Below are positions 26,995 through 38,823 of a DNA stretch of 64,000 nt, one piece after another (within the stretch, counting starts at the first letter, position 1; the number at the start of each line of letters is the position of its first letter). This stretch comes from Leptonema illini DSM 21528. GTDB taxonomy: Bacteria > Spirochaetota > Leptospiria > Leptospirales > Leptonemataceae. The DNA lies in the NCBI RefSeq assembly GCF_000243335.1, contig NZ_JH597773.1, positions 1,571,989-1,635,988 of the forward strand, in the 5' to 3' direction. The notes beneath the pieces were generated by a model. It saw only the letters and a program-made list of their open reading frames with translations, was not told the DNA's origin and did no database searches. The translations under genes were made by a program, and so were the position numbers.

Positions 26995-29451
26995 ATGGCA
27001 CAGAACATTGTAATCATCGGGAACGGCATGATTGCCCACCGTCTGCTGGAGCGATTGAGCGAGGCCGGATCAGATCTGCGTCTGACCGTTATCGGCGAAG
27101 AAGGGCGCAGCTATGATCGCGTGCATCTGACCGACTACTTCGAGAACCGCTCTGCGGAAAGCCTCTACCTCTGCGCCCCGGAGTGGTATCACGCTAACAA
27201 TATCACGCTGATTCCGGGTCGCGCCGTCGCCATCGATAGAGATGCGAAGACTGTAGCATTGCAGAACGGAGAGACCGTCTGCTATGATCGTCTTGTTCTG
27301 GCGACGGGTTCTTCTGCCTTTATTCCGCCTTTTCAGGGCAACGATCGCCCTGACGTCTTTGTCTATCGCACCATCGAAGACGTCGAACGCATCTATGAGC
27401 GATGCAGCTCCGCTCGCACCGCAGCCGTTATAGGCGGAGGCCTGCTTGGCCTTGAGGCGGCAAAGGCGGTGCACGGGCTCAAAGTCGAAACGCATGTCAT
27501 TGAATTCGCCGAGCGCCTGATGCCGCGTCAGCTTGATGCGGACGGAGCCGCTCTTCTTAAAGAGAAAATCGAAGAGCTGGGAATCAAGATCCATCTCGGA
27601 AAGCAGACCACGCACGTTACGGGTGACGTCGGCCATCTCATGCATTTTTCGGACGGAACGCAGTTAGCCGTCGACATGATCGTCATCTCGGCCGGCATCC
27701 GTCCGCGCGACGAACTGGCAAGAGCCTGCGGCCTTGACGTTGCTTCGCGCGGAGGCGTCGTCGTGAACGAATTCATGCAGACAAGCGACGCCGCTATTTA
27801 CGCTATCGGAGAGGCAGCCTCGTATAACGGAATGGTCTACGGGCTTGTCGCTCCGGGTTATGATATGGCTGAGGTCGCCGCCTCGCGTATTCTTGAGTCG
27901 GGCTCCGCCGCTTTCGCAGGGGCCGATATGTCGACAAAGCTGAAGCTTATAGGCGTCGATGTGGCCTCATTCGGCGACGCTCTCGGCGAACAGCCGCATG
28001 TGCCCATCGTCTTTCGAAATCCGCGAAAGGGTACGTACAAAAAGCTCTTAATATCAAAGGACGGACGGCTTCTGCTTGGCGGCGTTCTTGTCGGCGATAC
28101 ATCGGCCTACGGAACTCTTCTTGCCCTGTATCAGAACGCTATCGAGCTTCCGGAAGACCCGGAAAGTCTCATCGCAACTTCAAGCGGGGCAAGCGAGATC
28201 GCCCTGCCCGACACCGCTAAGATCTGTTCGTGTAACAACGTTTCGCGCGGCCAGATCAAGCAGGCGATCAACGAAGGTTGCACGACGATCGAAGGCCTGA
28301 AGAAGTCATGCAACGCAGGAACCGGATGTGGAGGATGCCTGCCTCAGGTAAACATGCTCCTGAAAGAAGAGCTGAAGCGCAACGGAACGACCGTGCGCGA
28401 CGTTCTCTGCGAGCACTTCCCTCATTCCCGTCAGGAGCTCTTTCAGATCATCAAGGTGCGCGGGCTGAAATCGTTTTCAGAGACGATCGCATCGGTCGGA
28501 CAGGGACACGGCTGTGAGATCTGCAAGCCTGCCATCGCCTCCATATTCGCCTCGCTGTATAACGAACCGATTCTCAGACACAGAGAGATCCAGGACACGA
28601 ACGATCGCTACCTGGCGACTATCCAGAAAGGCGGAAGCTATTCGGTTATTCCACGCATCCCCGGCGGCGAGATCACTCCGCGCAATCTCATCATTCTCGG
28701 TCAGATCGCCGAGAAGTACGGCCTCTATTGCAAGATCACCGGAGGCCAGCGTATCGACATGCTCGGCGCCCGCCTGGACGACCTGCCCCTTATCTGGCAG
28801 GAACTGGTCGAGGCCGGCTTTGAAAGCGGACATGCATACGGTAAGGCCCTGCGCACGGTAAAAAGCTGCGTCGGCTCGACGTGGTGCCGCTACGGTGTGC
28901 AGGATAGCACCTCATTCGCCATCCGCATCGAAGAGAGATATAAAGGCCTGCGATCACCGCATAAACTCAAGTCGGCCGTATCAGGATGCATCCGCGAATG
29001 CGCCGAGGCTCGCAGCAAGGACTTCGGCATCATCGCCACGGAGAAAGGCTGGAACCTCTATGTCGGCGGGAACGGTGGCGTCAATCCGGCGCATGCCGTG
29101 CTTCTTGCCGAGGATCTCGACGAAGAGACCGTTATCCGCTACATCGACCGCTTCCTGATGCTTTATATTCGCACGGCCGATAAGCTGACGCGAACATCCA
29201 CCTGGCTTGCCGGGCTTGAAGGCGGCATCGAATACCTCAAAAAAGTTATCATTCATGATAGCCTCGGTATCAACGCCGAGCTTGAGGCTGAGATGCAATC
29301 GCTCATCAATCTTTATCATTGCGAATGGAAAGAGGTTGTGACGAATGCAGAGCGTCGGCAGGCCTTCCGCAGCTTCGTTAATGAAAGCACTGGCGATGAT
29401 TCGCTCCGCTTTCATACGGTGCGCAACCAGAAACAGCCGGCACTCGTATAA
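26995..29451 (+). CDS. nirB: NAD(P)H-dependent assimilatory nitrite reductase, large subunit
   Basis: 818 residues; reduces nitrite to ammonium with six electrons from NAD(P)H. Domains in order: FAD/NAD(P)-binding reductase (1-~400; IVIIGNGMIAHRLLERL, AAVIGGGLLGLEAAK), BFD-type [2Fe-2S] domain with Cys411, Cys413, Cys445 and Cys448, ferredoxin-like half domains, and the [4Fe-4S]-siroheme site with Cys625, Cys631 (CVGSTWC) and Cys665, Cys669 (GCIREC). All cofactor ligands are intact and the length is normal. GAGGAG lies 6 bases before the ATG. It is the first gene behind the sigma-54 promoter and is followed by nirD and a siroheme-precursor enzyme. Confidence 0.97.
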   Translation: MAQNIVIIGNGMIAHRLLERLSEAGSDLRLTVIGEEGRSYDRVHLTDYFENRSAESLYLCAPEWYHANNITLIPGRAVAIDRDAKTVALQNGETVCYDRLVLATGSSAFIPPFQGNDRPDVFVYRTIEDVERIYERCSSARTAAVIGGGLLGLEAAKAVHGLKVETHVIEFAERLMPRQLDADGAALLKEKIEELGIKIHLGKQTTHVTGDVGHLMHFSDGTQLAVDMIVISAGIRPRDELARACGLDVASRGGVVVNEFMQTSDAAIYAIGEAASYNGMVYGLVAPGYDMAEVAASRILESGSAAFAGADMSTKLKLIGVDVASFGDALGEQPHVPIVFRNPRKGTYKKLLISKDGRLLLGGVLVGDTSAYGTLLALYQNAIELPEDPESLIATSSGASEIALPDTAKICSCNNVSRGQIKQAINEGCTTIEGLKKSCNAGTGCGGCLPQVNMLLKEELKRNGTTVRDVLCEHFPHSRQELFQIIKVRGLKSFSETIASVGQGHGCEICKPAIASIFASLYNEPILRHREIQDTNDRYLATIQKGGSYSVIPRIPGGEITPRNLIILGQIAEKYGLYCKITGGQRIDMLGARLDDLPLIWQELVEAGFESGHAYGKALRTVKSCVGSTWCRYGVQDSTSFAIRIEERYKGLRSPHKLKSAVSGCIRECAEARSKDFGIIATEKGWNLYVGGNGGVNPAHAVLLAEDLDEETVIRYIDRFLMLYIRTADKLTRTSTWLAGLEGGIEYLKKVIIHDSLGINAELEAEMQSLINLYHCEWKEVVTNAERRQAFRSFVNESTGDDSLRFHTVRNQKQPALV

Positions 29452-29494: not shown

Positions 29495-29839
29495 ATGGAA
29501 ATGACAGTAACGCTCACAAAACACAGAGTTGGAACAGTAGAGGATTTTCCCGTCGAAGGCGGTGCCTGCGTTCGCGTAGACGGGCGTCAGATCGCCGTCT
29601 TTCATTTCACGTCGCGTCAGGAATGGTACGCCTGCGAGAACGCCTGTCCTCATTCGGGCAGCATGCTACTGGCTCGCGGCCTGATCGGCGACCAGAAGGG
29701 AGAGCCCAAAGTAACATGCCCCATGCATAAGAAATCGTTCTCGCTACAGAGCGGTCAATGCCTGAACGACGACGAATACTCCGTTCGCACGTATCCGGTG
29801 ATCGTCGAAAACGGGAACGTTTATATAGAGCTCGCGTAA
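29495..29839 (+). CDS. nirD: Nitrite reductase small subunit with intact Rieske motif
   Basis: 114 residues of the Rieske fold. Ligands are complete: Cys51-Pro-His53 (NACPHSG) and Cys75-Pro-Met-His78 (CPMHKKSF). Many NirD proteins, such as that of E. coli, lack these residues and carry no cluster, so this one may hold a [2Fe-2S] centre and pass electrons to or within NirB. Located 43 bp after nirB with AGGG upstream of its start. Confidence 0.93.
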   Translation: MEMTVTLTKHRVGTVEDFPVEGGACVRVDGRQIAVFHFTSRQEWYACENACPHSGSMLLARGLIGDQKGEPKVTCPMHKKSFSLQSGQCLNDDEYSVRTYPVIVENGNVYIELA

Positions 29840-29880: not shown

Positions 29881-30711
29881 ATGAAAAGGGTGCGAACAAT
29901 GCCGAAGGTTTACATAGTGGGTGCCGGCCCGGGCGATCCCGAGCTTCTGACGCTAAAGGCCGTGCGAGTGCTTGAAGCGGCCGATGCCGTGCTCTATGAC
30001 GATCTTGTCTCGCCTGCCGTGCTTGGCTTTGCCGTTCGCGCCGAGCGCATCCACGTCGGCAAGCGCGGATTCAGTCACAGTGAATCGCAGGAGAATATTC
30101 ACACCCTCCTCAAACACACGGCATCAATCTATGAAACCGTCGTGCGTTTGAAGGGCGGCGATCCGGCGATTTTCAGTCGAATCGGCGAAGAGATTCGATT
30201 TCTGAGAAACGAAGCAATCCCCTTTGAGGTGATTCCCGGCATTACGGCCGCCTCGGCGATGTCGGCCAGTATGCAGCTGCCGTTAACCTGCCGGGGGATT
30301 TCGCGAAGCATCCTCTATCTGACAGGGCATAGTAAAGACGGAGTCCATCTTGAACCGCTGAAGACGATTTCATTGAGAGAGAAAACCGTTATCATCTATA
30401 TGGGCCTGAATGCTTTGCCCGACATCGTGCAAACCCTTATAAACGCGGGCAATCCGCCGTCGACGCCCATCGCCGTTATTGAACAGATATCGTTACCAGG
30501 AGAGCGCAGACTCCAGGCCGATCTTACGTCGATCGAGGAACTCTGCCATCGAGAAAGAGCGACCTCGCCTGCTCTGCTCGTTATCGGCGATGTACTGCGC
30601 GAATTTCCCGAAGAGGCAGTCTCGAACTTCCAGCATTCCATTGAATATAAGACCGACAGTGAACGCCAGGCATCGGGTTTATTCTCACTGAAGGCAGCCC
30701 ATCATGCATGA
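29881..30711 (+). CDS. cobA: Uroporphyrinogen-III C-methyltransferase (SUMT)
   Basis: 276 residues; uses two S-adenosylmethionine to turn uroporphyrinogen III into precorrin-2, the precursor of siroheme. Motifs: VYIVGAGPGDPELLTLKA, VLYDDLVSP, VRLKGGDPAIFSR, GITAASAMSA and the IYMGLNAL strand. It is a stand-alone methyltransferase without the CysG dehydrogenase/ferrochelatase part, so those steps must be encoded elsewhere. The start may be the ATG at 29881 or MPKVYI at 29899. Its place after nirBD fits supply of siroheme to NirB. Confidence 0.94.
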   Translation: MKRVRTMPKVYIVGAGPGDPELLTLKAVRVLEAADAVLYDDLVSPAVLGFAVRAERIHVGKRGFSHSESQENIHTLLKHTASIYETVVRLKGGDPAIFSRIGEEIRFLRNEAIPFEVIPGITAASAMSASMQLPLTCRGISRSILYLTGHSKDGVHLEPLKTISLREKTVIIYMGLNALPDIVQTLINAGNPPSTPIAVIEQISLPGERRLQADLTSIEELCHRERATSPALLVIGDVLREFPEEAVSNFQHSIEYKTDSERQASGLFSLKAAHHA

Positions 30712-31330
30712 ATCAAACCTCCATAAATCGGACTCCGATGCGATTGCAGAGGCCCTGCGCAGATTCGATGAGATCAACGCCGCCGATACAAATCGCATCA
30801 TCATAGACGGCACAGAACATCCGACGGCGCTCTTTCACGCGAATCGATTGAGTTACTGGATCGGCAGGCTGAACCTGACTCCGTCGACGGCGTTAACACT
30901 CGCCGCCAGATGCCAGCATCTCAAGCGATATGAACATCCGCGAAGCGCTTACCCCGAAGGGCGTGAGGGTTATCTGAAGTGGCGCAAAGATCTGAGCAAG
31001 CTGCACGCCGCTCTGTCGGCTGAGATACTCACCGAATGCGGCGTAGACCCGCAGATCATCGACGAGGTAAAACGCATCAACCTCAAAGACGGCATGCGGT
31101 TTCATCCGGACGTGCAGACGATGGAAGACGCTCTCTGTCTGCTTACGCTCGAATATCAGATGGACGGGCTTATCGCCTCATCAAGCGAAGAGCAATTACT
31201 CGGTATCATCGAAAAGGTCTGGAAGAAAATGAGCGAGAGCGGGCGAACCCTCGCCGGCGAGATCAAACATAGCGCTGAAGTCAGACAGGCGCTGACGCTT
31301 CTGCTCGATAAAGACACGCAATCAAACTAA
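30704..31330 (+). CDS. DUF4202 protein
   Basis: 208 residues. The pattern LFHANRLSYWIGRL, LAARCQHLKRYEHPRSAYPEG, REGYLKWRKDL and later TMEDALCLLTLEYQMD is that of DUF4202, a soluble helical family of unknown function that I recall beside nitrate and sulfate assimilation genes. The conserved RCQH and His/Arg residues could form a metal or phosphate site, but that is conjecture. It overlaps the SUMT gene by 8 bp, so the two are probably translated together. Confidence 0.85.
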   Translation: MHESNLHKSDSDAIAEALRRFDEINAADTNRIIIDGTEHPTALFHANRLSYWIGRLNLTPSTALTLAARCQHLKRYEHPRSAYPEGREGYLKWRKDLSKLHAALSAEILTECGVDPQIIDEVKRINLKDGMRFHPDVQTMEDALCLLTLEYQMDGLIASSSEEQLLGIIEKVWKKMSESGRTLAGEIKHSAEVRQALTLLLDKDTQSN

Positions 31331-31366: not shown

Positions 31367-32698
31367 ATGACCATCAAGCCAGGCTCAAAAGCCACACGCA
31401 TCGATCTGTTCAGTATCAGCTCGCCTCAGATGCGGACCTTTCACTTCACATGGTTCGCTTTCTTTCTTTGTTTTTTCGGATGGTTCGGCATAGCGCCTCT
31501 TATGGTCTATGTCCGCGAAGAGCTGCATCTTACGAAAGAGCAGATCGGGAATATCATCATCGCCTCGGTAGCCATTACCGTTCTCGCTCGCCTCGTTATC
31601 GGCTGGCTCTGCGATAAGATCGGACCGCGTATCAGCTATTCCGCTCTACTGATTATCGGATCGTTACCCGTCATGGGCATCGGACTTGCGGATAGCTATA
31701 TCTCGTTTCTGATTGCACGTCTTGCCATCGGCATCATCGGCGCCTCTTTCGTCATCACCCAGTATCATACCTCGGTGATGTTCGCTCCGAACGTCGTCGG
31801 CACGGCGAACGCTACGACCGCAGGCTGGGGTAATCTCGGCGGCGGCGTGACGCAGATGGTCATGCCCATACTTTTCGGTTTTTTTGCCGCCTTTGGGTTT
31901 ACGACGGCGCTCTCCTGGAGATTCGCCATGATTGTGCCCGGCGCTGCCCTCTTTCTTATGGGCATCGCTTACTACTTCGGCACGCAGGATACTCCCGGCG
32001 GGAATTTCAGCGACATCAAAGAATCTCATCCGAAGTTCCACGGCGGAAAAAAGAACTCGCTGGCTAACTTCGCCTCGGCCATCGCCGATCCCCGCGTATG
32101 GATTCTCTTTGTCGCCTATGCTGCCTGCTTCGGTATCGAGCTTACGATTAACAACATCGCCGCCCTGTACTACGTGGATCGCTTTGAGCTGAGTCCGGCA
32201 ACGGCTGGTCTTATTGCAGGACTTTTCGGCCTGATGAATATCTTCGCCCGCACTCTGGGCGGTGTTTTCGGTGATCGCTTCGGATCACGTATGGGCCTCC
32301 AGGGACGAGTCACATGGCTGGCTATCACGCTTGCGGGCCAGGGCCTGTTCCTTGTGCTCTTCTCGCAGATGAATGTGCTTATTCTCGCCATCGCCACGAT
32401 GATCCTTTTCAGCCTCTTTGTTCAGATGGCCGAGGGAGCGACCTTTTCCGTGGTGCCGTTTGTTAACCGCCGGGCTGTCGGAGCTGTTTCGGGTGTAGTC
32501 GGTGCCGGAGGAAATGCCGGTGCTGTAGCCGCCGGTTTCCTCTTTCGCGGAGGCTACAGCTATCAGGAGGCTCTTTTGATGATCGGCATCGCCGTTGTCG
32601 CATCGGCGGCCGTAGCCCTGCTCGTTCGCTTTACTGTCGAAGAGAACTCCGCCGTTGAAGAAGAGCTCAATCTGCTGCTTCGAAACGAATCGGTTTGA
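31367..32698 (+). CDS. Nitrate/nitrite transporter, NarK/NasA family
   Basis: 443 residues, major-facilitator type with 12 membrane helices. It has both nitrate signatures: GWGNLGGGVTQMVMP in helix 5 and GVVGAGGNAGAVAAGF in helix 11, plus the MFS loop motif GWLCDKIGPR. It should import nitrate for the reductase encoded next. AGGAGA precedes the ATG. It is the single-unit form, not the NarK1-NarK2 fusion. Confidence 0.95.
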   Translation: MTIKPGSKATRIDLFSISSPQMRTFHFTWFAFFLCFFGWFGIAPLMVYVREELHLTKEQIGNIIIASVAITVLARLVIGWLCDKIGPRISYSALLIIGSLPVMGIGLADSYISFLIARLAIGIIGASFVITQYHTSVMFAPNVVGTANATTAGWGNLGGGVTQMVMPILFGFFAAFGFTTALSWRFAMIVPGAALFLMGIAYYFGTQDTPGGNFSDIKESHPKFHGGKKNSLANFASAIADPRVWILFVAYAACFGIELTINNIAALYYVDRFELSPATAGLIAGLFGLMNIFARTLGGVFGDRFGSRMGLQGRVTWLAITLAGQGLFLVLFSQMNVLILAIATMILFSLFVQMAEGATFSVVPFVNRRAVGAVSGVVGAGGNAGAVAAGFLFRGGYSYQEALLMIGIAVVASAAVALLVRFTVEENSAVEEELNLLLRNESV

Positions 32699-32703
32699 GT
32701 TGA

Positions 32704-35700
32704 ATGTCCGATATGACGCAAACGAAGCAAGTTCGCACTACATGCTCCTACTGTGGCGTAGGCTGCGGTATCGTCGTTGAGAAAAACGATACCGGGCTGA
32801 CGCTCGAAGGGGACACGAACCATCCTGTGAATCAGGGACGACTCTGTTCGAAAGGCCGCAACCTGCATCATGTGGCGATGGATCACAGCGATCGTCTGCT
32901 TTATCCTGAGATGCGTCTTTCAAGACAGAGTCCGAGGATGCGGGTCGACTGGAACACGGCCATGCGGCGCGCTGCCGCCGTGTTTCATTCGGTCATCAGG
33001 CGCTACGGCCCCGACAGCGTCGGATTCTACGTTTCAGGACAGCTGTTAACCGAGGAATATTACATCGTTAACAAGCTTGTGAAAGGATTTCTTGGCACTT
33101 CAAACATCGATACAAACTCACGCCTCTGTATGTCGACGGCTGTGGTTGCCTACAAGAAAAGCCTTGGAGAGGATTCGGTTCCCGTATCATATGAAGATAT
33201 CGATCTATGCGAGGTGTTCTTTATCGCCGGGGCGAATCCGGCATGGTGCCATCCCATCCTTTTTCAGAGGATTGAGGATCGCAAGGCAAGGCACCCTGAG
33301 ACCCGCGTTATCGTCGTCGACCCACGCCGCACCGAAAGCTGCGAGCTCGCCGATCTGCATCTGCAGATCAGGCCGGGAACCGACGTGACGCTGTACAACG
33401 CCATAGCGCGCAGGCTCATCGAAACCGGGCAGATCGACATGCGCTTTATCGAGGCGCATACGGAGGGCTTTGACGCTCTTAAAGAAAAGGTGTTCGAGCG
33501 CACCGTCGATGAGGCCGCAGCGATATGCGGCGTGCGGTCCGAACACATTGAACTGGCCGCGGGCTGGATCGGCGAGACGCGATCGTTTCTGACGCTCTGG
33601 GCGATGGGACTCAATCAGAGCTCGATTGGAGTTAACAAGAATCTCGCCCTTATCAATCTGAATCTGATCACGGGGCATATCGGCCGACCGGGCTCAGGGC
33701 CGTTCTCGCTTACAGGACAGCCTAACGCAATGGGAGGCCGGGAGGTGGGCGGCCTGGCCACGATGCTTGCCGCGCACAGAGATCTCAGTCGTCCCGATCA
33801 TCGCGCAGAGGTGGCCGCTCACTGGGGCGTGCCCGCCGAGCTTATACCGTCGAAGCCCGGACTCACCGCAGTCGAGATGTTTGAGGCCCTGCGCTCCGAT
33901 AAGCTGAAGGCCATCTGGATCGTCTGCACGAACCCCTCCGTCAGCCTGCCCGATGCGACGATGGTCGACGAGGCGCTGGAGCGTGCACGGTTCGTCGTCG
34001 TACAGGATATCTCAAGTAAATCCGACACGTTGCAATATGCCGATCTGATTCTGCCCGCCGCCGGCTGGCTTGAAAAAGAGGGCACGATGACGAATTCCGA
34101 TCGCCGCATCAGTTACCTGCCGCGCCTTCTCGATCCTCCTGGAGAGGCGTTACCCGACGCCGAGATCTTCGCACGCTTCGCTGAAGCGATGGGATACGGC
34201 GATCACTTCCCTTATTTTAGATCCGGACCATCGGCAGCATCAGAAGCAGGATCATCGGGAATACGATCAACAAATGCCGGTGCGGCTGACATCTATGACG
34301 AACACGCGATGCTCACCCGCGGCACCAATCTCGACATCTCGGGGCTGGATTATGATCGACTGAAGCACTCGACGATGCAGTGGCCCGTTCCCGATCGCGA
34401 TCATCCCGGCACCAAACGCCTCTTCGCTGATGGACGTTTTTATACCGATTCCGGGCGGGCGAAGATCTTTCCCTGCGACGACGGGAATACAAGCGAAGCG
34501 ACCGATCCCGACTATCCTCTGATACTGACGACAGGTCGGATTCGCGATCAATGGCATACGATGACGCGAACGGGTAAGGTGCGCAGGCTCAGCCAGCATA
34601 TCGGTCGACCGATGATCGAGATCAACGAGGTCGACGCCATGCGCTCCGATATACGGGAGAACGATCTCGTACAGATAGACGGCAGGCGCGGATCGCTTCG
34701 CCTGAGAGCAAAGATCTCGGATTCCGTTCCGCCCGGCGTAATTTTCGCGCCCATGCACTGGGGAAAGATCGGACGCAGCGAAAAGGCCAGAGCGAATAAC
34801 GTAACGAATCCTCTCTTTGACCCGGCGTCAAAAGAGCCCGATTTTAAATTCACGGCCGTGAACATTCGCAGGCATCGGCCGCTGCCGCGCAGAATCGTTA
34901 TCGTTGGAGCAGGCACGGCGGCGCACGCCTTTTTAGAAGCTCACAGCGGAGAGAGTAACGATGATACGATCACCGTGCTTTCGCGAGAGCCCGATCCGTT
35001 CTACAATCGTATTCTTCTGCCCGACTTTATTCACGGGAATAAAAGTTTTGAGGAGCTGCGTTATGCGACCGATTCTTTCGCCCGTGTGAACGTTCTGTCG
35101 GGCGTTTCGGCTCAATCGATCGACAGGGCGAGCCGGATCGTAAGGACGGATGCCGGCGAAATCGCCTATGACGTGCTTGTTCTTGCCACCGGTAGCAGGC
35201 CCAGGCGACATCGCCTGATGGAGCCAGATGCGAAGCGCAGCGTCTTCACGCTACGAAACCGCATCGACGCCGAAAACATAAAAAGCCAGGCCGGCAATAA
35301 TGTGCTCATTATCGGTGGCGGGCTTCTCGGTATCGAGCTTGCCGACGCCCTGATGCAGTCCGGAAGTTCGGTGACGATCGTACATCGCTCGGCGCGTCTG
35401 ATGAGCCGTCAACTCGATGCGACGGCGGCCGACATGCTCTGCTCGGGACTGCTGCGGCGCGGCATGCAGATCATGCTTAACGATGAAGTGATCGGACTTT
35501 TCAAGCGGGACGAGATCTTCACCGCATATCTCGCAAGCGGTCGTCGGCTGGATTGCAGCTCGGTCGTGTATGCCCTCGGTACTCAGCCCGATATCGAACT
35601 TGCCCGGAGCGCCGGGTTACGCACAAACTTCGGTGTCGTCGTCGACGAGTACATGCAGACGAGCGATCCGAATGTCTATGCGATCGGCGAGGCGATGGAG

Positions 35701-36264
35701 TTTAACCGTAACACATACGGAACGGCGCTGGCAGCCGCCGACCACGCAAAAGTACTTGCCGGCGTGCTGGCCGGCGATCCGACCGTTCGGTATGGCGGAT
35801 CGATCGATCTCAACATTCTCAAAGTGAAGGGACTGCCCTGCGTCAGCATGGGTCGGATTCATCCCGGTAAAGAAGACGAGGTTATCCTGCTTAACGATGA
35901 GGCGCAGGGCCTCTACAAGAAGTTCCTGATTAACAGGGACCGACTCGTCGGCTGTCTTCTATTCGGTGATACGTCCGATCTGTCGCGTATGAGAGACCTT
36001 TATGAAAGCCAGATCGAACTGGGAGAGGAACGCAAAACACTTATCGGCAACGCCGGACCGGCCCGTGAGGTGCGCGGCGCACTGGTCTGCTCCTGCAATC
36101 GAGTTGGCGCTGAGAATCTGCGCGAGGCGATCATCGAAGGCTCGATAACCGACCTCCAGGAGCTGTGCCGGATAACGGGAGCGGGAACGGGCTGCGGCAG
36201 CTGTAGATCCGAGGTGCAGCGATTGCTCAATAAGGAGATCAAAGAACCGGCGGTGGTGTCATGA
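32704..36264 (+). CDS. Assimilatory nitrate reductase fused to FAD/NAD(P)H reductase and [2Fe-2S] domain
   Basis: 1186 residues. Part 1 (1-~725) is a bis-MGD nitrate reductase of the NasA/NarB type: [4Fe-4S] ligands Cys14, Cys17, Cys21 and Cys48, Lys50 after the last Cys, Mo ligand Cys142 (SRLCMSTAV), and a C-terminal dinucleotide-binding domain. Part 2 (~729-1110) is a FAD/NAD(P) oxidoreductase like NasB/NasC or the front of NirB (RRIVIVGAGTAAHAF; VLIIGGGLLGIELADALM). Part 3 (~1125-1180) is a BFD-like [2Fe-2S] domain with Cys1129, Cys1131, Cys1164 and Cys1167. Usually reductase and electron donor are separate proteins; here one chain could carry NAD(P)H electrons to nitrate. No signal peptide, so cytoplasmic. 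Its stop overlaps the next start (ATGA). Confidence 0.95.
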   Translation: MSDMTQTKQVRTTCSYCGVGCGIVVEKNDTGLTLEGDTNHPVNQGRLCSKGRNLHHVAMDHSDRLLYPEMRLSRQSPRMRVDWNTAMRRAAAVFHSVIRRYGPDSVGFYVSGQLLTEEYYIVNKLVKGFLGTSNIDTNSRLCMSTAVVAYKKSLGEDSVPVSYEDIDLCEVFFIAGANPAWCHPILFQRIEDRKARHPETRVIVVDPRRTESCELADLHLQIRPGTDVTLYNAIARRLIETGQIDMRFIEAHTEGFDALKEKVFERTVDEAAAICGVRSEHIELAAGWIGETRSFLTLWAMGLNQSSIGVNKNLALINLNLITGHIGRPGSGPFSLTGQPNAMGGREVGGLATMLAAHRDLSRPDHRAEVAAHWGVPAELIPSKPGLTAVEMFEALRSDKLKAIWIVCTNPSVSLPDATMVDEALERARFVVVQDISSKSDTLQYADLILPAAGWLEKEGTMTNSDRRISYLPRLLDPPGEALPDAEIFARFAEAMGYGDHFPYFRSGPSAASEAGSSGIRSTNAGAADIYDEHAMLTRGTNLDISGLDYDRLKHSTMQWPVPDRDHPGTKRLFADGRFYTDSGRAKIFPCDDGNTSEATDPDYPLILTTGRIRDQWHTMTRTGKVRRLSQHIGRPMIEINEVDAMRSDIRENDLVQIDGRRGSLRLRAKISDSVPPGVIFAPMHWGKIGRSEKARANNVTNPLFDPASKEPDFKFTAVNIRRHRPLPRRIVIVGAGTAAHAFLEAHSGESNDDTITVLSREPDPFYNRILLPDFIHGNKSFEELRYATDSFARVNVLSGVSAQSIDRASRIVRTDAGEIAYDVLVLATGSRPRRHRLMEPDAKRSVFTLRNRIDAENIKSQAGNNVLIIGGGLLGIELADALMQSGSSVTIVHRSARLMSRQLDATAADMLCSGLLRRGMQIMLNDEVIGLFKRDEIFTAYLASGRRLDCSSVVYALGTQPDIELARSAGLRTNFGVVVDEYMQTSDPNVYAIGEAMEFNRNTYGTALAAADHAKVLAGVLAGDPTVRYGGSIDLNILKVKGLPCVSMGRIHPGKEDEVILLNDEAQGLYKKFLINRDRLVGCLLFGDTSDLSRMRDLYESQIELGEERKTLIGNAGPAREVRGALVCSCNRVGAENLREAIIEGSITDLQELCRITGAGTGCGSCRSEVQRLLNKEIKEPAVVS

Positions 36265-37757
36265 CGATCGAGATTCGCTTCAAAAGGCACGGTAAGTGGA
36301 TTCAGATGCAGCCGCCCGGAGGCATGCTTACGCCCGATACGCTGGGTGAGATCGCCATGATAGGCAACAGGTTTGCAGCGCGATCCGTTCATCCGGGAGC
36401 CTTTCAGGATCTATGGCTGTCCTTCGCGAAACATTCACGGGCAAAAGAAGCGGCAGCGCATCTTGAGCAAAACGAACGCTTTCGAAAATCGAACGGCGAC
36501 GACCTCTTTATCTGTTCTGCATCATCGGTCGAGTACGAGAAGACGACGCCGTGGGCCACGGAAAGCGTCTATCTTGATCTGATTGACGCATGCATACCGG
36601 TCGAACGTCGCATCTCGCTTTCCATCGGCGATCCACTTCAATCTCTGACTCCGCTCTACTCCTGCGATGTTAACCTGCTTGCCTCGCCCATACAGCATCA
36701 CTGGCATCTCATTATGCTGAATCAGGAAAAACGAACCATTCAGGCGCCGTTCTTGATTCCTACGTTTCAGATTCCGGCCATCTTAAAGCGACTGAGCGAT
36801 CACGGAACGTTCAGCGTCGACGTCTTTGAGGCCTTACAGAGAAGTTATCCGGATTCTCTTCTGTATGGAACCGAATCCAGCATTGCGGCGTCACCCGAGC
36901 GAATCGCCCCGTACGAAGGCTTCTGTGCCTCTGAAAATCCCGAAAGGCAATGCCTCGGTATATTGCGAATCGAGTCAGGCTTTCGACCGATCTTCCTCGA
37001 TGAGCTCGCCTACTTTTCACGTAAACATCATGTGGGCCGCATCTTTCTCACCTCGCTTCATTCTCTCTTTGTGAAGAATATCACGACTGAGGCCGTCGAC
37101 GACTGGAAGAATCTGCTCGGTCGTCATGGGTTAAACCTGCGCCATGACGACGTCAGCCTGAACTGGCAGGTGGAGCACGGATATGAAAGGATACGTTCGC
37201 GCATCATAAAAATGCTGCGAGCGTCTGAGGCGGCCGGAGGTCTGAGCATTGCCGTCGGCCAGACGGCGTTGTCGCAGGATCGAGCGATTGCCATAGTTCC
37301 TGCCCGTTCGTTTCTCTTTCAGAAGGCCTACAGGGTGTATCATCGTCACGACTTCCAGAGGCATCGCACCGCATGGCATGGGACCGGCGAACGTATGACG
37401 GCGACACAGGTCGGCCACTATATCAAAGATCTCTATCAGATCTACTGCAACCTGTTTACGAGGCCTTCACTCAGCACAGCGGCCATTCCAAGTGCAAGAC
37501 AGGAGCCCATCATTCTCTCTTCTGTCTCAATCGACCTCAGAGAGGCATACGCCTGCGTCGAATGCATGACCATCTACGAACCGGAGCGTGGCGATCCGCG
37601 GCAAGATATTCCGCCTCATACGGCCTTCGAACGATTACCCGAAGACTATGAATGCTCTGTGTGCGGGTCGACTCGCTTTGAGAAGATGGAAGCAGGCAAT
37701 AGCGTCACTGGCCAGGCAACACCGGAATCGCCCGCCCTCACTGCCGGCTTCGGCTGA
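36261..37757 (+). CDS. Rubredoxin fused to a nitrite/sulfite-reductase-like scaffold
   Basis: 498 residues. The C-terminus (~435-480) is a complete rubredoxin: CVEC, IYEPERGDPRQDIPPHTAFERLP in part, and CSVC, giving a Cys4 iron site. The front ~420 residues are not a known domain at first sight, but contain two segments that resemble ferredoxin-like half domains of siroheme reductases (PPGGMLTPDTLGEIAMIGN near 18-36; ILRIESGFRPIFLDELAYFS near 233-252) and an intervening RISLSIGDPLQSLTPLYSCD region like the siroheme segment. The Cys-x5-Cys and Cys-x3-Cys cluster ligands are absent, so no siroheme site is expected. It is coupled to the nitrate reductase by a 4-bp overlap; an electron-transfer or assembly role is inferred. 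Confidence 0.85.
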   Translation: MTIEIRFKRHGKWIQMQPPGGMLTPDTLGEIAMIGNRFAARSVHPGAFQDLWLSFAKHSRAKEAAAHLEQNERFRKSNGDDLFICSASSVEYEKTTPWATESVYLDLIDACIPVERRISLSIGDPLQSLTPLYSCDVNLLASPIQHHWHLIMLNQEKRTIQAPFLIPTFQIPAILKRLSDHGTFSVDVFEALQRSYPDSLLYGTESSIAASPERIAPYEGFCASENPERQCLGILRIESGFRPIFLDELAYFSRKHHVGRIFLTSLHSLFVKNITTEAVDDWKNLLGRHGLNLRHDDVSLNWQVEHGYERIRSRIIKMLRASEAAGGLSIAVGQTALSQDRAIAIVPARSFLFQKAYRVYHRHDFQRHRTAWHGTGERMTATQVGHYIKDLYQIYCNLFTRPSLSTAAIPSARQEPIILSSVSIDLREAYACVECMTIYEPERGDPRQDIPPHTAFERLPEDYECSVCGSTRFEKMEAGNSVTGQATPESPALTAGFG

Positions 37758-38823
37758 GCGAGAAGGCCGACGGAAGAGCTCCGAACTGCTCTTCAAGACG
37801 CAGACGCATATTTTCTGAGGCAAGCGGAAAGTCGGCCAGGTTCTGCAACACCTCTTTCGCACGAGAAGATGTTAACGCAGTGACGTGCATCCGATAGGAC
37901 ATATAGATGTGATTCTGGAAAATGCCGCAATGCCACGGCGACTTTTCTGAAAGCAGATGCTCGTACAGAGGTTCGAGATTCTCACGCGGCAGCTCGCAGA
38001 TCGGCGCCGTCGCCGTCAGGTAATAAGTTTCGGTTACGAAGATGCGGATCAGCGTCTCGCCGCGATAGTATTCCCAGAATTCGAAGCCGCCTCGCGTCAG
38101 GACGGGATCAACGCCCGACTCCTGAAGCGATTGTTCCACGGACGAAGCAAGAAAGGTTAACGGTACCTCTTCAAACCACGTCTTATCGAGCGCATTGCCG
38201 CAATGCGGACAGTACTCCGTCTTCTCGAATATCAGCTTACCGCAGCCTGTGCATTTGATGGCAAAACGTCGATCGGGGTTGTGCTTGAGATCCTCAAGCG
38301 TATCACGGAGCGTCTGAACGGGAATCGCGAATCCTACGTTATCGGCCTCGGTGAATTTCGCCACCGTAACGCCGACGACCTCGCCCAGCTCGTTTACGAG
38401 CGGTCCGCCGCTATTACCGGGGTTAACGGCGGCGTCCGTCTGTATCAAAAACTGCCCGTCAAGAAACTGGCGAGCCGACGAGACGATGCCTTCGGTGACC
38501 GTAAACGGCATGCCGAATGGATAACCCAGCACATAGACGACGTCATGCGCCTGCACCGCTTTGCCGTTGCTCAGTTTGGCCGACGCTCCACGCCAGCCGT
38601 TCTCGGGCGACAGAAAGGCCAGATCGGCCTGCGGATCGGTTAATATGACCTGAGCCGGGTGTCGATTGCGGTCCCTGCCCTCAAGGCAGACACGACGGCT
38701 TCCGGCCACGACATGGTGATTCGTAACGATCACGTCATGCTCAGAAAGATAAAAGCCCGATCCCGTTCCCTGCGACGTATAGATCTTGAAGACGGAATCC
38801 TCGATGGAACGCTGCAACATCAT
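37738..38823 (-). CDS. Cytoplasmic HtrA-like serine protease with zinc ribbon
   Basis: 361 residues. A trypsin-like S1C domain (1-~180) has a full triad: His37 (TNHHVV), Asp67 (PQADLAFL) and Ser138 (NPGNSGGPL). Instead of a PDZ domain it has a zinc ribbon (Cys191, Cys194, Cys205, Cys208), then ~130 residues that resemble the YbjN/secretion-chaperone fold (YYLTATAPICELPRENLEPL region). There is no signal peptide or membrane helix, so it should act in the cytoplasm, unlike DegP/HtrA. It is the last gene of a four-gene operon and overlaps the upstream gene by 4 bp; its end overlaps the convergent rubredoxin gene by 20 bp. Confidence 0.9.
   Translation of the reverse strand: MMLQRSIEDSVFKIYTSQGTGSGFYLSEHDVIVTNHHVVAGSRRVCLEGRDRNRHPAQVILTDPQADLAFLSPENGWRGASAKLSNGKAVQAHDVVYVLGYPFGMPFTVTEGIVSSARQFLDGQFLIQTDAAVNPGNSGGPLVNELGEVVGVTVAKFTEADNVGFAIPVQTLRDTLEDLKHNPDRRFAIKCTGCGKLIFEKTEYCPHCGNALDKTWFEEVPLTFLASSVEQSLQESGVDPVLTRGGFEFWEYYRGETLIRIFVTETYYLTATAPICELPRENLEPLYEHLLSEKSPWHCGIFQNHIYMSYRMHVTALTSSRAKEVLQNLADFPLASENMRLRLEEQFGALPSAFSLSRSRQ

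Follow-up and report, generated by a model that had tools for sequence, protein, structure and literature searches.

A rubredoxin fused to a predicted siroheme-reductase fold without cluster ligands is linked to fused nitrate reductase and NirB in Leptonema illini and Bacteroidota

RSL and the closest described systems

Accounts of assimilatory nitrate reduction in bacteria usually name NasA, with or without a reductase, together with NirBD or NirA. In Bradyrhizobium, a separate flavoprotein donates electrons to NasC (PMC4724949), whereas at the locus described here NasA carries a fused module of this kind. The locus lies within a 64,000-nucleotide stretch of Leptonema illini DSM 21528 (the window) and ends in a gene for a protein to which we gave the working name RSL, for rubredoxin / pseudo-siroheme-reductase fusion protein (Table 1). 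RSL is predicted to share with NirA and CysI the overall fold and the order of the two ferredoxin-like half domains, but it has none of their cluster cysteines, has partly or wholly lost the Arg/Lys anion set, carries a C-terminal rubredoxin and is only ∼13% identical to them. It has its superfamily, operon, and nitrite pathway in common with NirB; however, NirB is complete and keeps the C-x5-C...C-x3-C ligands, and neither an FAD nor a BFD domain is present in RSL. The flavorubredoxin NorV, an active diiron NO reductase, likewise has a C-terminal rubredoxin on a redox scaffold, and NorW resembles the FAD modules of NasA and NirB, but no cofactor site was detected in the RSL scaffold.

RSL belongs to one kind of nitrate assimilation as an accessory protein that is widespread and conserved but functionally unstudied; it is not unique to the window. 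The NCBI annotation of the family is "rubredoxin," and the proteins of that name in Bacteroidota nitrate operons are named after their C-terminal 50 residues only. One of these, Spirosoma WP_232563077.1, is an RSL family member in the same place after NarK-NasA. For Aquirufa, a rubredoxin is listed within or alongside the genes of nitrate assimilation, with nothing further said (PMC12528234, PMC10821818); it resembles RSL in being listed for the same operon (PMC12528234). The earlier note had suggested that RSL may be an undescribed electron-transfer or assembly partner of assimilatory nitrate/nitrite reduction. "Undescribed" does not hold for the gene, given its wide distribution, its NCBI name, and the Aquirufa listing, but it does for the scaffold and the function as far as the open-licence literature goes, where we met with no account of either. 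Recognition of the scaffold would correct the name "rubredoxin," which hides four-fifths of RSL.

Table 1. Features of the RSL locus, in coordinates of the window
Feature	Coordinates	Strand	Description	Basis
NirB	26995..29451	+	FAD/Rubredoxin_C/BFD plus complete siroheme domain with C-x5-C...C-x3-C	Pfam, NCBIfam
NirD	29495..29839	+	Nitrite reductase small subunit	TIGR02378
CobA	29881..30711	+	Uroporphyrinogen-III C-methyltransferase, siroheme synthesis	TIGR01469
DUF4202 protein	30704..31330	+	8-nt overlap with cobA	Pfam PF13875, E 9e-54
NarK	31367..32698	+	Nitrate/nitrite transporter	TIGR00886, above cut-off
Fused NasA	32704..36264	+	Assimilatory nitrate reductase: Mo-bisMGD + [4Fe-4S], FAD/NAD(P)H module, Rubredoxin_C (PF18267), BFD [2Fe-2S]	Pfam, NCBIfam
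ATGA overlap	36261..36264	+	NasA TGA / RSL ATG, 4 nt
RSL	36261..37757	+	Rubredoxin / pseudo-siroheme-reductase fusion; 498 aa, ATG start, last gene of the operon	ORF, Pfam, AF2 + Foldseek
RSL scaffold	36261..37520	+	Predicted siroheme NiR/SiR fold: fd-half 1, SIR-like 1, fd-half 2, SIR-like 2; no cluster ligands
Phe48 of RSL	36402..36404	+	Arg of G-x-R-Q motif in 113/114 family members	Alignment
RSL rubredoxin domain	37548..37676	+	Residues 430-472 (Cys 432, 435, 465, 468)	Pfam PF00301, E 7.5e-14

The genes are arranged on one strand in the order nirB, nirD, cobA, DUF4202, narK, fused nasA, and RSL. The RSL reading frame is unbroken and present as a single copy in the 4.5-Mb genome, and a search of PHROG returned no match, leaving a phage origin unsupported. 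The RSL start codon lies within the NasA stop, not only in the window but also in a number of relatives from both phyla, and the ATGA overlap is likely to bring about translational coupling. The gene downstream (37738-38823) is on the opposite strand; it would encode a trypsin-like protease that has, by eye, a zinc-ribbon segment at its C terminus and is convergent with RSL, overlapping the end of its gene by 20 bases. DUF4202 genes also occur in the nitrate clusters of Hymenobacter (L022) and of the genomes G587 (L174), G003 (L178), and G015 (L179).

The reductase scaffold, its missing catalytic site, and the rubredoxin

In a Pfam search of RSL, PF03460 (NIR_SIR_ferr) was found in two stretches with a score of 28 bits, above the cut-off of 24, but PF01077, the 4Fe-4S siroheme domain, was not detected. 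A search of the PDB with the single RSL sequence gave no match. With a profile of 13 scaffolds, the search of PDB sequences recovered both half domains of Mycobacterium tuberculosis NirA in the right order, although each match was weak; NirA ranked second by E-value, after a desmoglein that we rejected as a chance match. Alignment of the RSL profile with a profile of four NirA-type proteins by hhalign gave an E-value of 4.5e-7 over fd1-SIR1-fd2. An AlphaFold2 model of the window protein, built with 47 homologues, reached a pLDDT of 74 and a pTM of 0.60, and all 31 of its Foldseek matches at E ≤ 0.001 were siroheme nitrite or sulfite reductases, with rubredoxins next. The best match was M. tuberculosis NirA (E 2.8e-12). 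The overall TM of this model was only ∼0.43 because its halves are loosely placed. A Siphonobacter homologue gave a better model (pLDDT 83, pTM 0.71), which aligned with NirA over 456 columns with a TM of 0.66/0.58 and an rmsd of 4.9 Å. Taken together, these models and profiles assign a siroheme nitrite/sulfite reductase fold to the first ∼420 residues of RSL.

The catalytic center of such enzymes is missing. The C-x5-C...C-x3-C ligands of the [4Fe-4S]/siroheme site occurred in none of 114 homologous scaffolds but were present in the controls, namely, the window NirB (at residue 625) and NirA-type proteins. The window scaffold (residues 1 to 425) has only six scattered cysteines, at positions 85, 111, 135, 222, 231, and 396. 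Global hhalign alignment through the cysteine region gives an unreliable register as to which residues replaced the cysteines. The Arg of the G-x-R-Q motif occupies the position of the TTR-motif Arg in NirA/SiR, in the register given by hhalign to a NirA-type profile, and the anion-site Lys (RKFK region) is kept in most members, at a position held by Ser119 in the window protein; the alignment did not recover the Arg/Lys anion- and siroheme-binding set in the window RSL. Since the Arg is lost in the window RSL alone, this copy lies further from the ancestor than the other members do, and no function needing that Arg can hold for it. Besides the four rubredoxin cysteines, the family has conserved His, Trp, and Gly positions. 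We rejected an active nitrite or sulfite reductase as an identity for RSL, as the cluster ligands are in no member and a complete NirB is encoded in the same operon.

The C-terminal domain scored well over the PF00301 cut-off and combines the C-x2-C...C-x2-C pattern with a rubredoxin fold (TMt of 0.8 to 0.87 against solved rubredoxins in Foldseek). Its four cysteines are kept in 113 of the 113 homologues that have the domain. Two strongly diverged homologues (L186:11483-12829 and L187:6528-7850) have four cysteines with ∼12 residues between the pairs and no full rubredoxin; this shortened four-Cys knot may be a zinc site. The earlier note had described a complete rubredoxin following two ferredoxin-like half domains from which the Cys-x5-Cys and Cys-x3-Cys ligands are gone, and all three descriptions held, the half domains through PF03460, Foldseek, and the hhalign comparison. 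Its "siroheme-type segment" stands as a matter of fold, but not as a PF01077 domain. It had also proposed fold prediction against NirB, CysI, and NirA, with an unrelated fold as the refutation; the Foldseek matches at E ≤ 0.001 were instead all siroheme reductases, ahead of rubredoxins.

Distribution and linkage to fused nasA and nirB

Our sampling in depth covered Bacteroidota, the phylum of the window, and plasmids. Homologues in Spirosoma, Hymenobacter, and Persicobacter are 22 to 28% identical to the window protein, lie directly after narK-nasA, and are called "rubredoxin" where annotated. A profile scan of 84,980 species genomes (GTDB) gave 546 coding matches, of which the best 80 were retrieved, nearly all of them from named Cytophagales; within these best 80, every locus with sufficient flank had RSL next downstream of FAD-fused nasA.

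Among 296 Bacteroidota genomes, we found a full-length RSL scaffold in 23, fused NasA in 27, and full-length NirB in 22. The 22 genomes with NirB are exactly the 22 that have both fused NasA and RSL, whose genes are adjacent each time. The 23rd RSL genome, G519, has its homologue at a contig edge and without a rubredoxin, and our searches of it detected no NirB and no fused NasA. This homologue (L163:273-1500) stops cleanly before the rubredoxin, and the contig edge lies ∼270 bases upstream. Fused NasA without RSL was seen in five genomes (G401, G443, G548, G572, and G612), all lacking NirB; at the four loci typed in detail (those of G401, G443, G548, and G612), a NirA-family reductase is accompanied by a flavodoxin-like protein and an FAD protein; those of G548 correspond to the two CysJ halves. 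In the nitrate clusters L181 to L183, in which fused NasA occurs with a NirA-family reductase, CysJ is present as two separate proteins, a flavodoxin and an FAD reductase, both of which carry an N-terminal stretch resembling PYxPExAPFTPxQRxWLNxF. RSL is also absent from five Bacteroidota genomes that have unfused NasA only.

In the phylum of the window, we surveyed 61 relatives, nine of which have fused NasA. RSL was present in eight of these nine, six of them detected by profile search and two diverged members recovered from the DNA downstream of nasA. The profile search returned mostly ordinary rubredoxins besides its six full-length matches, and the apparent exceptions, G002 and G020, proved to be misses; because two diverged members escaped it, our RSL counts are lower bounds. 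The ninth genome, G023, has fused NasA and NirB but no RSL, while G007, G026, and G059 have NirB without fused NasA and without RSL. The NasA FAD module of G003 (L178:7709-8855) is in two frames, through either a frameshift or an assembly error. On plasmids, 276 records matched NasA (E ≤ 1e-100), and the four with the Bacteroidota-type fused form are the same four that match RSL.

Co-occurrences across species are not independent trials because of shared ancestry; when RSL presence was mapped on the NasA tree, two changes sufficed, and five of the six RSL-less NasA proteins formed one clade. The earlier note had suggested looking for linkage to nasA/nirB in other genomes, and we found it conserved across two phyla. 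The check for homologues outside nitrogen clusters, which would have told against its proposal, likewise favored it, and its claim of translational coupling to the nitrate reductase agrees with the ATGA overlap.

Possible roles of RSL

RSL is probably a real helper of nitrate use. A third protein that is nearly always found with one form of NasA plus NirB, and is absent with NirA, points to an unexamined step, be it electron supply, assembly, or nitrite handover. RSL would, in addition, clearly exemplify a siroheme reductase fold that has been kept without its catalytic center.

In the window, NasA and NirB have the same NAD(P)H:FAD, Rubredoxin_C (PF18267), and BFD module, and the FAD modules of both match the NADH:flavorubredoxin reductase NorW. 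Rubredoxin_C is a domain of NADH:rubredoxin reductases, and a rubredoxin is a natural partner of such a module. That RSL occurs jointly with both enzymes suggests that it acts between them. We tentatively favor, at slightly short of an even chance, the view that RSL is an accessory subunit without catalytic activity, with a rubredoxin that docks on the FAD modules of NasA and NirB and relays electrons. RSL would be dedicated to NADH-dependent assimilation of nitrate to ammonium, and its ancestor would be a siroheme nitrite/sulfite reductase in which the [4Fe-4S]/siroheme site was lost and to which a rubredoxin was added. This one-electron carrier would dock on the NAD(P)H:FAD modules common to the two enzymes and pass electrons within or between them, while the dead scaffold would provide a protein-protein surface. 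Redox-active iron in the rubredoxin, docking on the FAD modules, and the direction of electron flow are inferences.

Several of the observations above argue for an electron relay: the RSL start within the NasA stop in both phyla, its place after FAD-fused NasA at the GTDB loci with enough flank, the exact match between NirB genomes and those with fused NasA plus RSL in Bacteroidota, its absence where NasA is unfused or is fused but accompanied by NirA and CysJ-like flavoproteins, the PF18267, BFD, and NorW-like modules of both partners, and the invariant rubredoxin cysteines. The main difficulty is that fused NasA has FAD and [2Fe-2S] domains of its own, so a further carrier should be unneeded. 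G023 manages with fused NasA and NirB but no RSL, the loop of the two diverged members is too short for a normal rubredoxin, and the G519 homologue has no rubredoxin at all.

An assembly factor, in which RSL loads or protects the cofactors of NasA or NirB (siroheme, [4Fe-4S]) and the dead reductase imitates the siroheme half of NirB, seems to us somewhat unlikely; the model for such a role is the part that small rubredoxins play in the maturation of hydrogenases. The scaffold and that half share a superfamily fold, RSL co-occurs with NirB in a cluster that includes cobA, and the rubredoxin-type protein HoxR/HupI sits in a hydrogenase maturation operon (PMC2907700). However, the three relatives with NirB but neither fused NasA nor RSL mean that RSL is not needed for NirB alone, and NirA genomes need siroheme too, yet are without RSL.

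As a dead siroheme reductase converted into a rubredoxin-bearing coupling subunit, RSL might instead hold the fused NADH nitrate reductase together with NirB in one nitrate-to-ammonium complex, sharing electrons and retaining nitrite. We regard this as unlikely; if true, nitrate assimilation in bacteria would have a third component that had not been recognised before. A scaffold that bridges NasA and NirB to hand over toxic nitrite, bound at the old anion site, is a little more doubtful still. In nearly all sampled genomes, RSL occurs only where fused NasA and NirB are both present, and most members keep the anion-site residues, the Arg almost without exception. The window copy has lost both, however, and nitrite binding therefore cannot be the general job of RSL.

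We consider it very improbable that RSL is a working siroheme or tetrapyrrole enzyme whose ligands are unusual, or a CobG-like enzyme. His295, a candidate axial ligand, is present in 112 of 114 members near the expected position of the first cluster Cys (by eye), and there is a weak CobG match (E 0.019), but the four cluster cysteines are all missing, the Arg/Lys set is incomplete, and no cobalamin genes adjoin RSL. CobG precorrin-3B synthase itself was rejected, with 13.9 bits for TIGR02435 against a cut-off of 234.8. Least probable of all is a decaying relic of a past nitrite reductase hitch-hiking in the operon, which would fit the low identity of the window protein to other members and its lost Arg but is disfavored by a reading frame that is unbroken in over 100 genomes from two phyla, by the invariant cysteines of the rubredoxin, by the conserved His, Trp, and Gly residues, and by a conserved gene order.
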